From: Alphaproteobacteria bacterium
Lineage (GTDB): Bacteria; Pseudomonadota; Alphaproteobacteria; DSM-16000; Inquilinaceae
DNA: 64,000 bases
NCBI GenBank assembly: GCA_028284045.1
Contig: JANQSN010000058.1
Location: 124,001-188,000, forward strand
Direction of reading: 5' to 3'
Position 1 is the first letter of the stretch, and each line of letters begins with the position of its first letter. The notes under the pieces are model-generated. The model was not told the DNA's origin and searched no databases. It saw only the letters and a list, made by a program, of their open reading frames with translations. Shown here piece after piece: positions 4,670-15,672 of the stretch. The translations under genes and the position numbers were made by a program.

Positions 4670-6274
4670 TCAGCCGGCGCCGGCGGCCAGCTTCACGCGG
4701 GCAATCACCGCGGCGAGGCTCTCCAGGCTGATCGGCTTGGGCAGATAGTCGTCCATCCCCAGCGCCAGATACTGGTCGCGCGCGGCGGTGCCGGCATTGG
4801 CCGTCACCGCGACGATCGGGATGTCGCGCTGGGGGCCGGCGAGGCTGCGGATCTGTTCCGTCGCCCCGATGCCGTCCAGACCGGGCATCTGGATGTCCAT
4901 CAAGACCATGTCGTAGGTGGCGTCGGTCACCGCATCGACTGCCTCGAAGCCGTCATTGACGACGGCCGCGCGGTGGCCGAGCGCGGCCAGCATGTCGCGC
5001 AAGACGACCTGGTTGAGCGTGTTGTCTTCGGCGATCAGGATGCTCGCCTCGCCGACATCCGGGGTCTCCGCGTCCGCCGGCCCGTCGACCGTCTCACGAT
5101 CTGCTTCGACCGGTGCGACGGGCAGATCGAAGAAAAAGGTGGAGCCGCGGCCCTGCGTGCTGGTCACGCCGACTCGGCCACCCATCAGGAAGGCGATCTG
5201 GCTGCAGATCGACAGACCGAGGCCCCAGCCCCCGCCGCGGCTGGCGAAGCCGGTGTCGGCCCGGACGAAGGGCTTGAAGAGCTTGGCGATCTGCTCTTCC
5301 GACAGGCCGATGCCGGTGTCCTCGACCTCGAAGCTCAGCGTGAGGGACGGCGCGGTCGGGGCGTCCGCGGTCGCCGGGCTCGCCGGTTCCTTGACCGAGG
5401 CGCAGAAGACCACGCTGCCGCGGCTCGTGAACTTTATCGCATTGCTCAAGTAGTTGTTGAGGATCTGCCGGATCCGGCTGTCGTCGGAGATGATCTCATC
5501 CGGCACATCCTCATCGATGGACAGGTGGAACTGCAGTCCCTTGTCGGCGGCACTGGAGCTCCACCAGTCACGAACATCGTTCAGCAGGTGATGCAGGCTG
5601 AAAGGCTCGGACTCGATCCGCATCTGCCCGGCCTCGATCTTCGACAGGTCGAGCAGATCGGTGAGCAGGCTCATCAGCGTCTCGCCGGCACCGAGGATCG
5701 CGTCGACCTTCTTGGCATCGCGCGGCGCCAGCTCGGAGCGCTGGAGGAGATGGGCGAAGCCGAGAATCGCGTTCATCGGCGTGCGGATCTCGTGGCTCAT
5801 GGAGGCGAGGAAGCGGGACTTCGTGGCGTTGGCCTCCGCCGCCTCCTGGGCCTTGGCCTCCAGCGCGCGCTGGGCTTGCGTCGCTTCGGAGTTGTCGAAG
5901 ATGAAGGCCAGCGAGCGGACGAACGCACCGTCGGGATCGTAGACGGCGACGGCCGACAGCAGGATAGGCAGGGCGCTGCCATCCTTTCGGACAAAATCAT
6001 AGGGTGTAAGATTGGTTATCCCCGTATCAATAAAGCGGGGAATGGTTGTGTCGCGCGCCAAAGTTCGCGACTCTTCAGTAAGAAAGTCAATCGACTTCTT
6101 GCCGATCATTTCATCTGGGTTGTATCCTAGAGTTTGTGCCCAATTTCGGCTGACGCGAAGAAGAACTCCATCTTTGTTGATGGAGTGCATCATCAAATGG
6201 TTGTTTTCAAATAAAACGTCGAACGGATCACCGCCGCAGACCGGAGCCGGCGTCATCGTCGTCTTGTCGATCAT
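4670..6274 (-). CDS. Soluble hybrid sensor histidine kinase/response regulator (PAS-HisKA-HATPase-REC)
   Basis: The protein has 534 residues and no membrane segment. Order of domains: PAS (about residues 18-130, with [16 protein letters not shown]), a short coiled coil, HisKA with [16 protein letters not shown] (phospho-acceptor His161), HATPase with [10 protein letters not shown] and [10 protein letters not shown], then a C-terminal receiver with AEDNTLNQ, phospho-acceptor Asp460 in [12 protein letters not shown], and Lys512 in YLPKP. This suggests a cytoplasmic phosphorelay kinase whose PAS ligand is unknown. No partner phosphotransfer protein or output regulator is adjacent. The start has AGGAGG four bases upstream and lies behind an AT-rich leader. 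The 5' end is noticeably less GC-rich than its surroundings. Confidence 0.92.
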
Positions 6275-6557
6275 GCCGCCTCCTGTCCGTTTTCTTGATA
6301 TATTGATATATAAGATATCAAATTGTATCTCGGGCGGATTTCTATCTGGTCACCGGCATGAGGAACTTTGGATGGGATCTTCGCAAAGATCAATCGGCTC
6401 GCCCCTTGGCGCCCATAGCGTCCTTGGCTGGACGGCGGCGGGCGCCGCCGCCATGGTGGCCCAGCCGGACGCCGCGCCCGCCCGCGCGCGTCGTCCCCCC
6501 AGCGGCTGGTACGCCGGGTGGCGATCGACCCCGACAGACGAGGACATGCGGTCAGTC
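6275..6557. promoter_or_regulatory. AT-rich divergent intergenic region
   Basis: The part near 6293-6330 is strikingly AT-rich for this genome, with repeated GATAT/ATATC words around TATATTGATATATAAG. It lies just upstream of the kinase start (minus strand) and probably holds its promoter. The rest of the interval toward 6558 has normal GC and no supportable gene. Specific -35/-10 boxes cannot be assigned with confidence. Confidence 0.45.
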
Positions 6558-6908
6558 ATGAGCGAAGCGCCCGGTTCCATCACCTTCGACGACTTCCTGA
6601 AGGTCGATATCCGCGTCGGCACCGTGGTGTCGGCCGAGCCCTATCCGGAGGCGCGGCGGCCGGCGATCAAGCTGGTGATCGATTTCGGCGACGCCATCGG
6701 CACGCGCAAAAGCTCCGCCCAGATCACCGAGCATTACGATATCGCAACGTTGCCCGGCCGCCAGGTGGCCGCCGTGGTCAACTTCCCGCCCAAGCAGATC
6801 GGCCGCTTCGTCAGCGAGGTGCTGGTGCTTGGCTTCGCCGACGACGAGGGCCGCGTCGTGCTGGTCGGGCCGGATCGCCCGGTGCCGAACGGCGGACGGC
6901 TGCATTGA
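6558..6908 (+). CDS. csaA: tRNA-binding domain protein, CsaA-like
   Basis: Starting at the ATG at 6558, the 116-residue protein is a free-standing EMAP-II/Trbp OB-fold: [39 protein letters not shown], then [24 protein letters not shown]. This is the length and sequence pattern of CsaA, a dimeric tRNA-binding protein described as a secretion-linked chaperone in Bacillus. An in-frame ATG four codons upstream (6546) is an alternative. It precedes the arginase-fold gene by 14 bases, so the two may be co-transcribed. Cellular role in this organism is inferred only. Confidence 0.85.
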
Positions 6909-6922
6909 CCGGGGCGGCGGCC

Positions 6923-7780
6923 ATGAGCCGGGCGGCGCGGCTGATCTACGTGCCCTATGACAGCGGCCGGATGGGCGAACGCTTCGGGCGCGGCCCGCTG
7001 GTCGCCCGGGATGCGGGCCTGGCGGCGCGGCTGGACGGCGCGCTGGCGGTGAGCGAGCAGGTCGTCACCCATGGCGGCTTCTTCCCGACCGAGGCGGCGG
7101 TGGCGTTCGACCTGGCGGGGCGGATCGGCCGCGCGGTCGACCGGTCGAAGGACGCCGGCGTCTTTCCGGTGGTGATCGCCGGCAACTGCCTGTCGTCGCT
7201 GGGGACTGTCGCCGGCATGGGCGGCCGCCGCCGCGGCGTCGTCTGGTTCGACGCGCATGGCGACTTCAACACGCCCGACACCACCATCACCGGCTTCCTG
7301 GACGGCATGGCCGCGGCGATCCTGGTGGGCGAGGCATGGCTTGCCGCCGCCGGCCGAGTCGCCGGGTTTCGGCCGGTCGAGCGCGCCGACCTGTTGTTCA
7401 TCGGCGCGCGCGATCTGGATCCGGAGGAGCGCGCGCGCCTCGCCGATCCGCCGGTCGCCGTGTTCTCCGGCGACGACGTGCGGACCCGGCGGCCGGCCCT
7501 GGACGCGGCGATCGCCGCCCTCGGCCAGCGTTGCGACAGCGTTTATGTGCATGTCGACATGGACGTGACGGAACCCGACCCGGTGCCGGCCAACGAGTTC
7601 GCCGTGCCCGGCGGGCTGAGCGACGCGGAGATCGCCGGCCTGCTGGACACCATCGCCGCGGCGGTGCCCCTGGCGGCGGCCGGTGTCACCGCCTACGACC
7701 CGGGCCTCGACCCCGATGCCAGCATGCGCGCACGCTACCTCGCCGTCATCGAGCACCTGGCCCGGCTGGGGGCGGGGTAG
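6923..7780 (+). CDS. Arginase/agmatinase-fold protein with altered metal site
   Basis: The 285-residue protein belongs to the ureohydrolase superfamily. It has the VVWFDAHGDFNTPDTT stretch (three of the usual metal ligands, DAHxD) and YVHVDMDVTEPD, corresponding to the late SxDxDxxDP motif. The first metal motif, normally GGDHS, reads AGNCLSSLG here, so the usual His ligand is replaced by Cys. Classical arginases and agmatinases need that His for the Mn-A site, so activity or metal preference may differ. Actinobacterial and other distant arginase-like proteins also deviate at this position. Substrate is unknown. It follows csaA closely. Confidence 0.8.
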   Translation: MSRAARLIYVPYDSGRMGERFGRGPLVARDAGLAARLDGALAVSEQVVTHGGFFPTEAAVAFDLAGRIGRAVDRSKDAGVFPVVIAGNCLSSLGTVAGMGGRRRGVVWFDAHGDFNTPDTTITGFLDGMAAAILVGEAWLAAAGRVAGFRPVERADLLFIGARDLDPEERARLADPPVAVFSGDDVRTRRPALDAAIAALGQRCDSVYVHVDMDVTEPDPVPANEFAVPGGLSDAEIAGLLDTIAAAVPLAAAGVTAYDPGLDPDASMRARYLAVIEHLARLGAG

Positions 7781-7806
7781 CGAGCGTCGTTGCGCTCAAC
7801 CGCCGG

Positions 7807-8853
7807 TCAGCCGTCGGAGATGCGTTTGCTGTCGTCGTAACCTTCCCGCGCCGGGCCATTGGATGACTTCGAGGCATCTCCCGCTTCCGATCCTTTTGCA
7901 TTTTGGGCAATGCCGGTGATCAGCGAGAACAGGATCGCCGTTAGCGTCAGGACCGCGGTCGCTCCAAGCACGTATGGATCGCGGATCGCCCGATCTGCCC
8001 AGCTTGGCACGATCGTCGTCGGTTCGGTGCCGAAACGCTCGACCACCAAACGGGTTCGGCCAAGCGCAGAGTAGCTGGTGATGTTGAAGGCATCGTCCAC
8101 GGCAGGTCCCGGCGAGATCACGCCGTGCGCCTTCTGCGGCACCGGCGCGCCACCATCGGTGCCGAAGACCGTCACGCTGTCGCCGCTGTACAGGGTGCCG
8201 GCGGCCACGGCGATCCCAGTCGATCGCAGCGGCAATGTCTCGCGGACCTCATAGCGGCCGCTGCGCAGCAGTCCGCGGGCGCCGGCGCGCGACAGCGCAC
8301 CGATGGTAACCGTCCCGGAAAACACGAGACCGCCGCTCGCTCGGAAGGCATTGCGGGTTAGCAAGAGACGCGAGCCCACGGTGATTTCGAGAGGGTAATC
8401 GCCCGTCACCGCAGGTTCGCCGCCGGGCAGGGCCCGCACATCGATCTCCAGACCGCCGCCTGGCCCCGCAGTGAACAGAAGCACGGTCCCGGGTTCCCAG
8501 ACGAGCGGCAGTGAACGCACCTTGGCCACATCGTAGAGGGCGGACTGGCAGCTTGATTGCGTCGCGGAGGCGATGGTTGAGGCTTGCCGAGGACGGCGAA
8601 TGCAGAGCACCGTCTGTTCCAGATGCCAGGCCGATCGTGCGCTGCCATCGAACGCGATTTCCGCGCCATAGGTCTCGGCCGTCACCAGGAAGGTTCGCTT
8701 ATGCTGGTCAGCATAAATCAGTATTATTGTCGTTACGATGGTAAGCAATAGTATAATCGAAATCAGATTGGATCTCCATAAGGAGATCTTTGTAAGAACA
8801 AGTCTCCCAAGTTCTCTTATATTATTCCTGGTATTGATTGGCGTTAGTTCCAT
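7807..8853 (-). CDS. Unknown bitopic membrane protein
   Basis: This is a 348-residue protein of no recognised family. It has a polar N-terminus, a strong membrane segment around residues 29-47 (ISIILLLTIVTTIILIY), a long region of beta-rich appearance (about 50-285) with two cysteines (CIRRP and SSCQS), a second hydrophobic segment around 290-314 and a polar tail. The likely topology puts the central domain in the periplasm. The start overlaps the end of the upstream secreted protein by 10 bases, so they are probably co-translated. The 5' third is AT-rich compared with neighbours, which may mean horizontal acquisition. Confidence 0.7.
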   Translation of the reverse strand: MELTPINTRNNIRELGRLVLTKISLWRSNLISIILLLTIVTTIILIYADQHKRTFLVTAETYGAEIAFDGSARSAWHLEQTVLCIRRPRQASTIASATQSSCQSALYDVAKVRSLPLVWEPGTVLLFTAGPGGGLEIDVRALPGGEPAVTGDYPLEITVGSRLLLTRNAFRASGGLVFSGTVTIGALSRAGARGLLRSGRYEVRETLPLRSTGIAVAAGTLYSGDSVTVFGTDGGAPVPQKAHGVISPGPAVDDAFNITSYSALGRTRLVVERFGTEPTTIVPSWADRAIRDPYVLGATAVLTLTAILFSLITGIAQNAKGSEAGDASKSSNGPAREGYDDSKRISDG

Positions 8854-9575
8854 AGCTTGATGATTTCAGGTCGCTGCGGGGCGCCGAAGCTGATGCGATT
8901 GATTTCGATCTGAGTGGCTTCGCCTACAGCAAGCTGGTCGCGCGGCAGGGCGCAGACATGGTCAAATGCAACGGCGGAACCGTTTGGCGGGATGCGGCAG
9001 GAGATATCGAAGCCACCGTCCGGCGCGGCCACCCAGGCATAGACCTCCGTCGCACCCAGCCCGTTGACCAGTACACGCACCTCATCGTCCGCAGAGGGGT
9101 CAACGCTCCGCCACAAGGCGGCGGCGAACTCCGTGCCGGCATCGGCGCAGCGGCCGCGAGACAGGGCGATGGCGAACTCCTCGGCGTGCAACGCCAGCAG
9201 CGCGTCGGCGTGCCGCGTTGCGAACTCCAGCAACGCCGTGCCGGTGCCAAGATCGCCCGGGACCTCGTACTCGGTTCTGGCTTCGTAAAGCGCCTCAGCC
9301 GACACAAAGCGTGCGCAGACCGGCGCGCCGCCCCAGGCCGCCGGCAGGGTGACTGCAACCAGCGGTTCGTCGCCCGGGTCTTCGGTATCGAGCATGACGC
9401 CGACAACTATGCGCGGGGCCGAGACCTCTGCTGCCGCTGTCAACTGTTCGTCGAGATCGCCGGACGCATGGATCATCGGCAGCTCCTGTGCGGCTGCCAC
9501 ACCGCAGATCGCGGTGCAGACCGTAAGTGCGCCAACCATTCGCCAACGATGAGGAGTATCCATTTTTCTTCGCAT
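8844..9575 (-). CDS. Unknown secreted protein
   Basis: The predicted product is 243 residues (an internal ATG at codon 5 is also possible). It has a Sec-type signal peptide: a basic start, hydrophobic MVGALTVCTAICGVAA and cleavage near AAAQE. The mature part contains about four cysteines (VCARF, RCADAG, ISCRIP, HVCALP), consistent with disulfides in the periplasm, and a recurring IEINRISFG-like beta segment at the end. No family is recognised. It is divergent from the trypsin-like gene across 82 bases and overlaps the membrane protein gene downstream, suggesting a functional unit. Confidence 0.7.
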   Translation of the reverse strand: MRRKMDTPHRWRMVGALTVCTAICGVAAAQELPMIHASGDLDEQLTAAAEVSAPRIVVGVMLDTEDPGDEPLVAVTLPAAWGGAPVCARFVSAEALYEARTEYEVPGDLGTGTALLEFATRHADALLALHAEEFAIALSRGRCADAGTEFAAALWRSVDPSADDEVRVLVNGLGATEVYAWVAAPDGGFDISCRIPPNGSAVAFDHVCALPRDQLAVGEATQIEINRISFGAPQRPEIIKLWN

Positions 9576-9657
9576 TCTTTGGTGTCGTTGGCCCAGGGCT
9601 TCGCCTAGGGTGCCTGTCCGAGATTACTGTATCAACCGCGTTGGAGAGATCGAAGCC

Positions 9658-10809
9658 ATGCGTCGGACCGGAATGGGGGCGAGGCTGTTCCGCTGGCTGG
9701 GGCGCGCCGGTGTCGCCTGGCTCGCCGGTATCGTCGCGCTTCTGCTTGGCTGGTCGGTCGCGTCGTCGGCGGAACCGGTGTCCGTCAATCGCAACAGCGG
9801 GCAAGGGTTCGTCGTCACGCACCGCGGCAACTGCTACGTGATCCTGCCTCACCATGTGCATGGCGACCGACTATCCTTGAGCCTGTCCGCCGGTGCGCCG
9901 CCTGTCATCGGCCAGGCCTGGGTGTTCGAGATGTTCGCGCCGGGAACCGATCTGTCGATCGGGATCGTCACCGGCGGGATGGAAGGCCGATGCACCGATG
10001 CGTTCGCCGAACTGCCGCAGGAGATCGACGCACTGGTGTCGGCGGACGGGGCGGTTTCGGTCGTGGTGGTTTCCGACACCGGCGTCGTCCGCCGGATGCC
10101 GGGGCATGTCGGCGACCTGAGCTATGAGACGATGCTGGTGGATTTGGAGGCGTCCGACACAGGCACCGGCATCGCGCGGGGCACAAGCGGCGCCTTGGTC
10201 TTCGCCGGCGATACCGCGGTCGGCATGGTCGTTCGCGCCTTCGGGCGTCAGCGGGCCGAAGCGCTTCGCATGGACGCCATCGTTTCGCGACTCGACAGGT
10301 TGCTGGAAGGGGCGCTGGATCCGATCGAGGTCGTGCCGACGCCCGTCGGTACGGCCGATGGCACCGGATCGGGTGCGGCGCTGGGGATCGTAGGGCTCGC
10401 CACGGCCATCGCCGCCTGCTCGGCCGAGCCGGTGACGCCGGAGGCGAGTTGCTGGAGCATGGCCTCGGGCGTGGGACCCTTGCTGGTGCCGCCGGAAACG
10501 CTGCCTCTCGTCATCGAGATTGAGGTCGGCGGCGGCGACGTCACCGCGGTACGGTCGGTGAGGCTCCGTGCAGGCGTCGACGGCGATAGCGCAACGATTC
10601 CGCAAACCGTGCTGGTGGAGCGCCAGGTCCGCACGGGCACGGGTGGGCAGTCTTCCTGGTTGTCCTTTGGGCGAGGCGACATGTCGCCGCTGGGAACGCT
10701 GCGGGTCGACAACGGGGCCGCGCCGCGCACCCGCGCCCTGCGGCTGACCATCCTGGATGCTTGGGCCCCGGCGTTGCCGATGCGCCTCGACTCGATTGAA
10801 ATCCGCTGA
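9658..10809 (+). CDS. Putative exported trypsin-like serine peptidase
   Basis: With the ATG at 9658 (GGAGAG upstream) the protein has 383 residues and a clear signal peptide: basic start, hydrophobic WLAGIVALLLGWSVASSA. The mature N-terminus has the spacing of a chymotrypsin-fold peptidase: GQGFVV followed by ILPHHV (candidate His66), APGTDLSIGIV (Asp98) and GTSGALVFAG (Ser177). The usual GDSGG is replaced by GTSGA. The remaining 200 residues have a hydrophobic stretch (about 237-256) and a beta-rich end of unknown type. A GTG at 9610 could extend the N-terminus by 16 residues but would bury the signal peptide. Peptidase activity is inferred from motif order only. Confidence 0.65.
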   Translation: MRRTGMGARLFRWLGRAGVAWLAGIVALLLGWSVASSAEPVSVNRNSGQGFVVTHRGNCYVILPHHVHGDRLSLSLSAGAPPVIGQAWVFEMFAPGTDLSIGIVTGGMEGRCTDAFAELPQEIDALVSADGAVSVVVVSDTGVVRRMPGHVGDLSYETMLVDLEASDTGTGIARGTSGALVFAGDTAVGMVVRAFGRQRAEALRMDAIVSRLDRLLEGALDPIEVVPTPVGTADGTGSGAALGIVGLATAIAACSAEPVTPEASCWSMASGVGPLLVPPETLPLVIEIEVGGGDVTAVRSVRLRAGVDGDSATIPQTVLVERQVRTGTGGQSSWLSFGRGDMSPLGTLRVDNGAAPRTRALRLTILDAWAPALPMRLDSIEIR

Positions 10810-10811
10810 CC

Positions 10812-11444
10812 TCAGTCGATCAATGGTACACGGATGGTCACGGCGGTGCCGCGCCCCTCGACCACGAAGCTGCCGGTCAGAGCGCCGGCGTCGTCGAGTC
10901 GCATGACGGCAGATCCATCTCTGCCGGCGAAGTGCCATCGTACGGTCATCACTTCCTCACCGGCCATGCGGAAGACGCAGTATTGCGAGTTCAGCCACAA
11001 CCAGCAGGCCTCGGCATCGTTGTAGGCGCCGACGGCGAACCCGAAGTAGCCCGTCAGTCCATCCGGCGACCAGCTTCCTCCGGCGCGTGACAGCCAGTCG
11101 AAGATCGGCGTCAGGTCAGCTTGGTCCGCCGGTACCTGGAACTCGGCGCGGAAGGCACCACCGGCATTGAGCGTGGCGCGGATGGCTGCGGCGCGCAGCC
11201 GCGGATCGTCAGAGAAGAGCCCGACCTCCCGAGCCATTCGCGTCAGCGCCGGATCTCCGCTCGCCAGAATGGCCTCCATCGCCGCGATCCGCCGCCTAGG
11301 GTCGGGATCTGCTAGCAACTGCTCCGCGCGCGCCAACTCTGCCGACCGACCCTCGACCGCCGACTCTATGCTATCGAGCACGGATTGGGCCGATGCGGTC
11401 GAAAACGCAAGGCTATAGGCGAGAATTGCCAAGATCACTCTCAT
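10812..11444 (-). CDS. Unknown secreted protein with possible HEAT-like repeats
   Basis: Choosing the ATG at 11444 gives a 210-residue product with a textbook signal peptide, MRVILAILAYSLAFSTASAQ. A longer reading to 11492 would place 16 extra residues ahead of it. The mature N-terminal half is helical and repeats the pattern DPRRRIAAMEAILASGDPAL and DDPRLRAAAIRATLNAG, similar to HEAT repeats. The C-terminal half is beta-rich with two cysteines (EACWLW, QYCVF). No family is recognised. Its stop lies two bases from that of the trypsin-like gene (convergent), and its start faces the puhA promoter region. Confidence 0.65.
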   Translation of the reverse strand: MRVILAILAYSLAFSTASAQSVLDSIESAVEGRSAELARAEQLLADPDPRRRIAAMEAILASGDPALTRMAREVGLFSDDPRLRAAAIRATLNAGGAFRAEFQVPADQADLTPIFDWLSRAGGSWSPDGLTGYFGFAVGAYNDAEACWLWLNSQYCVFRMAGEEVMTVRWHFAGRDGSAVMRLDDAGALTGSFVVEGRGTAVTIRVPLID

Positions 11445-11627
11445 AAGCACATCCCCAAGCATGCTAGTTCCTGCTAATGCAGTGTACTTCATCAGGAGAT
11501 GCGATTATAGGCGGTGGGTAGGGCGTTCTTACGGCCCGGGTATGGCGGGCGGCACCCGTTCGCCATCCGGCGGCCCCGCGAACCGATGGGTCGACGGCGG
11601 CATTGCGCCGGCTCATACGTCCGCAGG

Positions 11628-11661
11628 TGTCAGTTTTTCTTGACGTCCAAACGAATTGACA
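11628..11661. promoter_or_regulatory. Overlapping PpsR/CrtJ-type palindromes upstream of puhA
   Basis: Two palindromes overlap by two bases. TGTCA-N8-TGACG lies at 11628-11645, and CGTCC-N8-TGACA at 11644-11661 (TGTCA-N8-GGACG on the other strand). The PpsR/CrtJ consensus is TGT-N12-ACA, so each copy departs at one end. The first form, including its final G, recurs exactly at the puf promoter. Regulator identity is inferred, because no ppsR gene is in the window. Confidence 0.6.
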
Positions 11662-11685
11662 TTTGCGTTGCGGACCCCCTAGACT
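11656..11685 (+). promoter_or_regulatory. Predicted puhA promoter
   Basis: A perfect -35 box TTGACA (11656-11661) is followed after 18 bases by TAGACT (11680-11685) as the -10 box. The -35 box is part of the second palindrome, so a protein bound there would block RNA polymerase. It would leave a leader of about 200 nt before puhA. Confidence 0.5.
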
Positions 11686-11892
11686 CGAGGAAGCCGGACA
11701 AGGGTCTTGGGCGACGGTTCTTGCGTGTCGTGTCGGTCCGCCGGGGTCGGCCGACGGGCGGGCACGTCCTAGGGGGTGATGCCCTCTTTTCCCGTTGCCC
11801 TTGCCGCGACGGTGCGATCGCTGACGCGCCGTCGCTCCGGACCGCGGACACGACCGTACGGCCCGGTCGCGCGGACCCGCCTGGAGGACGAC

Positions 11893-12675
11893 ATGGGAAT
11901 CGGAGCCATCACCGCAGAGATCGACTTTACGCAGGTCCTGCTCTACGCCTTCTGGCTCTTCTTCGCGTATCTCATCTTCTATCTGCAAAAGGAAAGCCGC
12001 CGCGAGGGCTATCCGCTGGAGGCGGACGAGACCGGAAAGCTGGAAGACCCCGGCTTCGTCTACATGCCCCAGCCGAAGACCTTCCGGCTGCCGCATGGCC
12101 ATGGCGAGGTGCAGAAGCCCGACGGCAAGCGCGAAACCCGCGAGCTGAAGCTGCGGCCGCTGCAGGTCTGGGGCGGCGCACCGAAGGAGCCGACGGGCGA
12201 CAACCCCTTGCTGGACGGCGTCGGCCCCGGCGCCTATGCGGAGCGGGCGGACCATCCCGACGTGACCTTCGAGGGCAAGGTCAAGATCGTGCCGATCCGC
12301 ATCGCGGAGGGCTTCGGGCTGTCCGCCAACGACCCCGATCCGATCGGCATGGATGTGGTCGGCTGCGACAACAAGGTCGGCGGCAAGATCACCGATGCCT
12401 GGGTCGACAAGTCGGAGCATCTGCTGCGCTACTATGAAGTCGCACCCACCGGCGCGAAGGACGGCGACCGCGTGCTGTTGCCGGTGCCGTTCGCCGTGGT
12501 GCGCGGCCGTCGCCGCCAGATCTACGTGCATGCCATCACCGGTGCGCAGTTCGCCGATGTGCCGAGGACCAAGCAGCCCGAGCAGGTCACCCTCTTGGAA
12601 GAAGAGAAGATTTGCGGCTATTACGGAGCAGGCCTGCTCTACGCCACGCCGCAGCGGACAGAGCCTCTCTTCTAA
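11893..12675 (+). CDS. puhA: Photosynthetic reaction centre H subunit
   Basis: From the ATG at 11893 (GGAGG nine bases upstream) the product has 260 residues, the normal H-subunit length. It has one membrane helix near the N-terminus (about residues 12-31, TQVLLYAFWLFFAYLIFYL), then the cytoplasmic PRC-barrel domain with DPGFVYMPQPKTF, PIRIAEGFGLSANDPDPIGM, a GKITDAWVD stretch and LLPVPFAVV. The H subunit caps the L-M core and shapes proton entry to QB. The conserved Glu/Asp-rich regions expected around the proton path are present, but individual residues were not mapped. It is followed 77 bases later by the puhB-puhC fusion. Confidence 0.97.
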   Translation: MGIGAITAEIDFTQVLLYAFWLFFAYLIFYLQKESRREGYPLEADETGKLEDPGFVYMPQPKTFRLPHGHGEVQKPDGKRETRELKLRPLQVWGGAPKEPTGDNPLLDGVGPGAYAERADHPDVTFEGKVKIVPIRIAEGFGLSANDPDPIGMDVVGCDNKVGGKITDAWVDKSEHLLRYYEVAPTGAKDGDRVLLPVPFAVVRGRRRQIYVHAITGAQFADVPRTKQPEQVTLLEEEKICGYYGAGLLYATPQRTEPLF

Positions 12676-13906: not shown

Positions 13907-14311
13907 TCAGGTCCCCGGCAGGGCGCCGCGAATCAAGTTGCCCCCATCGGTCAACAACCCGATGACGGTGTTGACCTTGCCGAGCGTCGCGGCAATCTCC
14001 TTGTTGCGTTTCACCGCGTCTTTCAGATTTTTGGTGATGCCGGATAGTGTTTGTTCTTCTTTTTTCGAGAAGACACCGAGCTGGACCCAGGTCTTCTCAA
14101 ATTCAGCTAGGTTGTCCTTCTCAAGGTTGAGGGCATCACCCATGTTCTTGTGCCTTAGGGCTTGTGCCTCGTCCGTGGCGTTTTGCCAGGCGGCGTCTTG
14201 TTCATTGATCGCCGTCTGTAGCTCATCCTGTGCCTTGATGATTTTGGCGTACACGGCTTGCCAGGTCGCGCTGCCGTTCCGCCGTTCACTATCGGCTGGG
14301 TCATTGGGCAT
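13907..14311 (-). CDS. Unknown small helical protein
   Basis: The 134-residue product is highly charged and almost entirely predicted helical, with heptad-like stretches such as IKAQDELQTAINEQDAAW and LEKDNLAEFEKTW, then a small hydrophobic end (VNTVIGLLTDGGNLIRGAL). It has no signal peptide or cysteine and resembles no family I recognise. The base composition is lower in GC than the flanking photosynthesis genes. It lies downstream of the lipoprotein gene on the same strand, 59 bases apart, so the two are probably one unit. It converges with puhBC. Confidence 0.6.
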   Translation of the reverse strand: MPNDPADSERRNGSATWQAVYAKIIKAQDELQTAINEQDAAWQNATDEAQALRHKNMGDALNLEKDNLAEFEKTWVQLGVFSKKEEQTLSGITKNLKDAVKRNKEIAATLGKVNTVIGLLTDGGNLIRGALPGT

Positions 14312-14370: not shown

Positions 14371-15672
14371 TCAGGGGCCGGCCGCTGCTAGCCCGCCGAT
14401 GGCCGTGACGCTTGCCTGGACATCGCCGGCGAAACCTTCGATCAGCGTCTTGGCCTCGTCGATGCTGATCTCGGGGTTCTCCAGCGCCTCCCTCAAGGCT
14501 GCGTGGGCGCTTGCGATCTGCAGGCCGGCGCTGATGGGGTCGTGCTCCAGGAGGGTTCGCAGTTCGCGGAGCTGGCTGTCGACGTCCTGTACAAGATCGG
14601 CCGTCCGACGCGAGCGCTCGATGGAGCTTTCGGTCTCAGCGTCTAGCGCCGTCCGGTTCGCCTGTTTGACCAGTTCGAGCAGACGTCTTTGATAGCGTCG
14701 CACATTCGTATCGAAGTCCACCAAGGACTGGTGGCAGGCGAGCGCGCCGAGTTGGGCAACCAAAGGATCCGCGGCGATCACCGACTGGCGGATCAGGGCG
14801 AGCCGCTCGCCTTCCAGAACCAAGTCAAGCAGCCCGACAGCAACGCCGCCCACGGCCTTCAGGGCGCCGGAAATGGCCACCCCCTTCGGACCGGCCAGGG
14901 CGGCCAGATTGGCAATCTTGGTGACGAACTGTTCGGCGGCGGTCTCTACGTCGTCGACGTCCTCGGCAGCGGCGGCGGTTGCCAGGGCCTTGCCGTACTC
15001 GCTTAGAAGCAGCAACGGGTCGTTGCGTCTGACGAGCGCGCCTTCGACGACCGCGATGTCGATGCCGCTCTCGTTGAAGGCGTTGGTCACCGCGGTGCTG
15101 TCTTCGTAGTCCTGCTCATTCGGATCGTCGATGGTGATCTCGTCGGTGTCGATCCCGCAGAGGTCGAGCCTTGCGTTGGTTTCCCAGTCAACGACGGCGG
15201 TGGCCCCTGGGTTGGCCCATGGGCTGGCGCCTCGGCCGGTTGCCGGCGTGTCCGAAGCGGCACCAACCAGACATCTTTCCGCGGGGCCTGTGCCCACACC
15301 GCCGACCAGGCAGACGTTGCAGCCCGCCGCGACGTGCTGCGTGCGGGCGAGCCACGCCTGGCGTATGGCGCGCTGTCGGGAGTCCGGGATGGATGCCAAG
15401 ACCGCCGGGATCGTCACCGGACCGAAGAAATCGGGTAGGGGCGCACACGCCGGCTGGATCTTGAGACGGCCGGCGCGGTCGACGGCCATATTCGCTGCGA
15501 CCGATTCCCGGTGGCTAAGCGCCAGCAGCTCGGCAGTGCGATCGTTCAACTGCTGGTTCTGGTCGGCGGCGTCCTGGATCGACTGTCCGAATGAGGCGGC
15601 CAGGTCCCGGGCCTCGCCGCCGCAGCCGCCCAGCAAGCCCAAGGAGGCCACAATCGCCAGCATGCGTTTCAC
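14371..15672 (-). CDS. Unknown lipoprotein
   Basis: The 433-residue protein starts at a GTG with GGGAG seven bases upstream. Its signal ends in the lipobox LLGGC (Cys17), so it should be lipidated by Lgt and LspA. The N-terminal half has further cysteines (PACAP, CNVC, RCLVG, LCGID) and an acidic patch DEITIDDPNEQDYEDS. The C-terminal half is helical, with a glycine-alanine segment (ISGALKAVGGVAVGLLDLVL) and long charged helices. No family is recognised. It sits behind pufM in the same orientation, beyond a strong hairpin, so co-transcription with pufLM is doubtful. Confidence 0.7.
   Translation of the reverse strand: MKRMLAIVASLGLLGGCGGEARDLAASFGQSIQDAADQNQQLNDRTAELLALSHRESVAANMAVDRAGRLKIQPACAPLPDFFGPVTIPAVLASIPDSRQRAIRQAWLARTQHVAAGCNVCLVGGVGTGPAERCLVGAASDTPATGRGASPWANPGATAVVDWETNARLDLCGIDTDEITIDDPNEQDYEDSTAVTNAFNESGIDIAVVEGALVRRNDPLLLLSEYGKALATAAAAEDVDDVETAAEQFVTKIANLAALAGPKGVAISGALKAVGGVAVGLLDLVLEGERLALIRQSVIAADPLVAQLGALACHQSLVDFDTNVRRYQRRLLELVKQANRTALDAETESSIERSRRTADLVQDVDSQLRELRTLLEHDPISAGLQIASAHAALREALENPEISIDEAKTLIEGFAGDVQASVTAIGGLAAAGP

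Follow-up and report, generated by a model that had tools for sequence, protein, structure and literature searches.

Regulated proteolysis in the bacterial envelope is known from DegS-RseA, in which an envelope serine protease acts together with a membrane protein, and the HtrA family, which includes DegS and DegP, has the active-site motif GNSGG. In systems with the trypsin-co-occurring domain (TRYPCO), this domain is found in a partner protein. Here, we analyzed a 64,000-nucleotide stretch of an alphaproteobacterial genome of the family Inquilinaceae (GCA_028284045.1, contig JANQSN010000058.1, positions 124,001 to 188,000 of the forward strand; hereafter the window, G000:C4:124001-188000; source genome of 4.32 Mb in 63 contigs), which carries a block of four open reading frames (ORFs), A to D, at 7807-11492 between an arginase-family gene and puhA. 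We propose, with moderate confidence, that A to D constitute one horizontally mobile functional module building a proteolytic envelope complex. That the four genes form a real unit moving between bacterial classes appears, from sequence comparisons, far more certain than the proteolytic part of this proposal.

Gene A (7807..8853, minus strand) encodes a membrane protein of 348 amino acids (aa) with two transmembrane (TM)-like segments (aa 23-41 and 295-313), and its designation as bitopic in the preliminary description was wrong. Gene B (8844..9563, minus strand; start possibly 9575) overlaps A by 10 bp and encodes a putatively exported, Ig-like protein of 239 aa. Gene C (9658..10809, plus strand; 383 aa; alternative start GTG 9610) is divergent from B, with a gap of 34-94 bp according to the chosen starts, and encodes a predicted exported trypsin-fold protease with a CBM32-like C-terminal domain. 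Gene D (10812..11444, minus strand; start possibly 11492 or 11462) encodes a putatively exported protein of 210 aa with a HEAT-like N-terminal half and two cysteines in its C-terminal part, and lies tail to tail with C, their stop codons separated by 2 bp. The four neighboring ORFs, the A/B overlap, the small gaps and the His-Asp-Ser order in C, all reported earlier, were thus confirmed.

All four genes were found side by side in 16 loci of alpha- and gammaproteobacteria, which show three gene orders and have unrelated flanks; these loci are not all independent, as they include two near-identical Paracoccus aminovorans strains (99% identity in C) and two Tistrella-like copies (80% in C). The C relatives in genomes G008 and G048 belonged to four-gene loci with the order and relative orientation of the window and other flanks. 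Further four-gene loci were located in Haliea sp. E1-2-M8, on pTM2 of Tistrella mobilis, on plasmids of Cereibacter (Rhodobacter) sphaeroides 2.4.1 and P. aminovorans, and in four genomes from one family of another class; G057, G1037, G1038 and G1141 were reached via B. Nine loci share the first order, A- B- C+ D- (window, L006, L012, L007, L016, L014, L015, L018 and L058), four have C, D, B and A on one strand (L023, L031, L032 and L033), and in three (L046, L054 and L057) B, A and C are co-directional with D opposed. In the second order, D overlaps B by 4 bp in all four loci and B overlaps A in three of them. B adjoins A and C adjoins D in 16/16 loci; in 12/16, C and D stand tail to tail, and the distance between their ends ranges from -7 to +19 bp. 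A further plasmid copy in C. sphaeroides MBTLJ-13 (L017:3911-7666), kept outside the 16 loci, has split frames in several genes, reflecting either decay or sequencing error.

An all-against-all comparison of 11 neighborhoods (blastp, 1e-4), with the L014-L017 pairs of the same plasmid family set aside, gave between-locus matches within A to D only, apart from L007-L031 and L012-L015, both unrelated pairs. Pairwise protein distances of A to D were correlated across 13 loci (r of 0.826-0.932; 0/2000 permutations for each of the six gene pairs). The earlier view of a self-contained system is therefore borne out, as the four genes travel together in 16 loci with unrelated flanks, and neither separate distributions nor clear homology to unrelated families was found, with the caveat that B-A occurs alone in two genomes.

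The distribution of the module was patchy (all counts include the seed genome of each search). C was detected in 5/61 relatives at an expectation value (E) of <=1, of which G000, G008 and G048 were convincing, and within the window's own family it occurred in G000 and G008 of the 17 genomes listed. It was detected in 4/386 genomes of the class, 4/397 genomes of the phylum (E<=0.01; convincing in G000 and G649), 4/151 in the family of G649 and 1/140 in that of the Haliea genome (G755). B was detected in 4/397 genomes, convincingly in G000, G057 and G649, all three with all four genes, as well as in 3/7 members of the family of G057 and 4/194 of the order of G649, where two genomes had four genes and two had B-A only. 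Weak fragments of C in G042, G055, G316 and G636 and of B in G561 were excluded as members. Among plasmid records, 10/72,556 matched, all from Cereibacter, Paracoccus or Tistrella. None of 50,697 phage records carried a copy and scans of IMG/VR found no relative, and a phage origin was rejected on these grounds.

The gammaproteobacterial Haliea copy was sister to the alphaproteobacterial copy of G008 in the trees of B, C and D (support of 96/93, 94/95 and 95/95, respectively), and its placement with G008 was unresolved in the A tree. C of Haliea shares 53% identity with that of G008 and 39% with that of the window, and the latter two share 39% although their genomes belong to one family. Because the Haliea copy groups with an alphaproteobacterial copy, the module moves between classes as a unit. 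Acquisition by transfer, raised as a possibility in the preliminary description, is supported by the patchy distribution, the plasmid copies and this cross-class sister pair.

The proteolytic reading centers on C, whose residues are numbered from the ATG at 9658. His66 (9853..9855, plus strand; PHHVHG), Asp98 (9949..9951, plus strand; GTDLS) and Ser177 (10186..10188, plus strand; GTSGA), the proposed catalytic residues with Ser177 as nucleophile in a G-x-S-G motif, were invariant in 16/16 sequences, as were Gly175, Gly178, Cys59 and Cys112. In the structural model, aa 44-218 (9787..10311, plus strand) resembled the HtrA/DegS-like protease fold, with a VIA-align Z of 13.4 to DegS (3lh3_H; 156 residues; root mean square deviation, 3.4; 14% identity). 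Residues 243-383 (10384..10806, plus strand) resembled CBM32/F5-8C-type domains (Z about 14 and up to 14.3; about 130 residues; 6-16% identity), and Foldseek likewise returned CBM32-type, DegS and MamO chains. In gammaproteobacterial copies, an SH3_3-like domain replaces the CBM32-like one (E of 6.5e-5 in one member of C alignment A9, 1.2e-4 in L031 and 0.019 in L033; none reported for L032). On this modeling, C likely combines a protease domain with interchangeable tails that bind the wall or glycans.

A is less conserved than the other three proteins. Its TM-like segments enclose a stretch of about 250 aa, probably on the periplasmic side; two such segments were scored in 12/13 members and only one in the thirteenth. 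B has six cysteines, four of them invariant in 12-member alignments, and its model (predicted local distance difference test score [pLDDT], 70) contains two Ig/FnIII-like beta domains; a more specific fold was rejected, the best Z of 5.8 giving no firm match. Of the two secreted proteins mentioned earlier as having several cysteines, D has two, one invariant in 12/12 rows and the other present in 8/12. HEAT models matched D weakly (E of 0.003-0.02), and its search against solved-structure sequences returned one chain, 9y6s (E of 2.1e-4). A second, divergent D-like gene (hmmsearch E of 5e-20) lies beside D in P. aminovorans (L015:8702-9325). Judged by hydropathy and reading, the N-termini of B, C and D are of the export type.

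We infer the following arrangement for how the complex is built and triggered, what it cuts and which parts B and D play. Anchored in the inner membrane through its first and last helices, A would present a periplasmic domain and would be bound by B, the exported Ig-like protein with conserved cysteines that is always encoded beside it. C, the candidate exported trypsin-fold serine protease, would be the catalytic part, held on cell-wall or surface glycans through its CBM32-like (or SH3b) domain, whereas D, exported, HEAT-like and always beside C where C is present, could act as its adaptor or brake. C would respond to an envelope signal by cleaving a target, in the simplest case A or B, and would thereby alter the membrane's state. 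A narrower version, in which glycan-tethered C, restrained by D, cleaves A-B on envelope perturbation and thereby alters or kills the cell as a mobile periplasmic switch, seems quite doubtful; cytosolic protease-gasdermin pairs would be its counterpart. In this version, C and D may also restrain each other through overlapping tail-to-tail transcripts, given the close ends in 12/16 loci. A terminator scan of 7600-11950 revealed one weak site inside A and none at the C/D junction; shuffled sequences averaged 2.7.

Several observations weigh against a mobile proteolytic module of four parts. Window C reached the cut-off of no trypsin or HtrA profile in Pfam or NCBIfam, and the best relative, from L046, matched Trypsin_2 with an E of 0.0034 and 18.6 bits against a cut-off of 27.6. 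The C model was built from three sequences and is of low confidence (pLDDT, 63; predicted template modeling score, 0.41), and in B, C and D an N-terminal TM-like segment was scored in some members, not in every one. B-A occurs without nearby C/D in G1047 (L055) and G1187 (L056), and C and D, which can thus be absent, may be dispensable. In L055 (6569-8905), an unrelated-looking upstream ORF (6569-7330) overlaps B by 8 bp and another (5900-6589) is transposase-like; this locus may represent either a cassette that was truncated or a variant with B-A alone. In L056, the B start is 89 bp from the contig end. The C-profile search found only a fragment in G1047 (E of 3.7e-4) and nothing in G1187. 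The base composition is also only mildly unusual: the guanine-plus-cytosine (GC) content of the block, 0.651 against 0.697 for the window, is matched or undercut by 2.0% of same-length windows, and it is mostly A (0.611) that lowers it. The block is indeed more AT-rich than its surroundings, as had been noted, but C is ordinary (0.690) and puhA itself has 0.651, so that composition is weak evidence. As proof of acquisition it was rejected, the deviation being too mild, and transfer rests on distribution and trees.

The flanks differ from locus to locus. In C. sphaeroides, a caspase-domain gene (E of 4.4e-26) lies beside the cassette, and on its plasmids this gene is accompanied by two small unknown genes (L017:1469-2917 and L014:1042-2023). 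A gene for a dynamin-like GTPase, which matches LeoBC weakly (5.9e-6), stands beside D on the same strand in Haliea (L012:7933-9966), and a ResIII helicase gene adjoins the cassette in L023. The L023 cassette is flanked by a 300-bp direct repeat (95%; 6859-7158 and 11851-12150) of the 3' part of the helicase gene, resembling the duplication that an insertion or transposition leaves behind. The remaining flanking genes mostly look metabolic or hypothetical. The adjacency to puhA in the window is real but incidental, since puhA and the PH-domain gene after it are retained without the cassette in three further genomes of the family, and other cassettes have other neighbors. An empty site at puhA was sought and yielded no clean case, the upstream sequence of these three genomes having no match to window genes. 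Between pufM and the PH-domain gene after puhA, the window also encodes a charged protein of 134 aa (13907-14311, minus strand; GC of 0.558, low for the window) and, adjoining it, a lipoprotein-like protein of 433 aa (14371-15672, minus strand), neither with a known family in Pfam or NCBIfam.

Caspase, dynamin and helicase neighbors hint at a conflict role, and an envelope module directed against phages or rival bacteria is possible, if rather unlikely. Dormant C would, upon envelope attack, cut A or A-bound B, causing membrane damage or an entry block. The patchy occurrence (4/386, 4/151 and 1/140), the plasmid copies and the cross-class grouping would suit such a system; its suggestive neighbors are anecdotal, most neighbors being metabolic, A to D have no PADLOC match, and no copy was seen in the 50,697 phage records or relative in IMG/VR. 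We consider it unlikely that the module is an accessory to quality control or stress proteolysis in the envelope, with C degrading damaged periplasmic proteins like DegP while A, B and D tether and feed it. In fold, the protease domain matches DegS and DegP best, and substrates could be held by the HEAT-like D and the Ig-like B, but the C proteins scanned revealed no PDZ domain, and core quality control would not be expected to be so patchily distributed and mobile. Were C instead a maturation protease processing or displaying a surface or secreted product, such as an adhesin or glycan-binding assembly, its CBM32-like and SH3b domains and the four exported or membrane proteins would be accounted for, yet the cassettes share no dedicated substrate gene, which makes this option very improbable. 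Chance neighbors without joint function, to which genes on both strands and a B-A pair able to stand alone might point, are hardly credible in view of the 16 four-gene loci, three orders, unrelated flanks and co-varying distances.

Family searches agreed with the earlier statement that nothing recognized explains these genes. A to D had no family above cut-off in Pfam and NCBIfam and 0 families each in PADLOC-DB 2.0.0 at E<=1, and Rfam gave no match. Sub-cut-off Pfam matches of A, B and flanking genes (Oxidored_q3, DUF3717, E1_dh and others) were treated as noise. Searches of solved-structure sequences gave none for window C or B and only noise for A, and the C profile matched only an importin (E of 1.7). 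No paper on the four-gene module was among those listed by searches of open-access literature. By its anatomy, its gene content and these failed searches, the module appears categorically new: an undescribed gene system that spans two bacterial classes, with three of its proteins lacking a known family above cut-off. The copy on the C. sphaeroides 2.4.1 plasmid is annotated as hypothetical proteins only, and its presence in this model organism makes the system directly testable in a tractable strain. If the proteolytic reading is true, the envelope, a compartment with few known mobile protease systems, would gain another one.

Compared with described systems, the module departs from TRYPCO systems, as no Trypco domain was matched in window A to D (Pfam) or in the scanned C and D members; a weak match (0.075) occurred in an unrelated Haliea gene. 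Noncontiguous operon and excludon layouts (PMC7154746), with a gene of reversed orientation enclosed by the set, resemble the 9/16 loci in which D and B-A flank a C encoded on the other strand and the 12/16 where the C and D ends nearly touch. As an explanation of gene order this layout was weakened and retained only within the switch version above, since it fits the first order and not the other two: in three loci C is co-directional with B-A and D is opposed, and in four all genes lie on one strand. The C-terminal domain of C is predicted to have the fold of CBM32/F5-8C modules, here fused to a trypsin fold. C shares with HtrA proteins the modeled double-barrel trypsin fold, the His-Asp-Ser residues and an export-type N-terminus, but its G-x-S-G lacks the following Gly of GNSGG, its C-terminal domain is CBM32-like or SH3b, and it is accompanied by three unknown partners. 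Because no PDZ was found (8 members of alignment A9 and 4 further C proteins) and no curated profile was reached, HtrA membership is not claimed. No sigma or anti-sigma family was above cut-off for A in Pfam or NCBIfam, and A has two TM segments, unlike the DegS-RseA system, with which the module nevertheless shares the combination of an envelope serine protease and a membrane protein.

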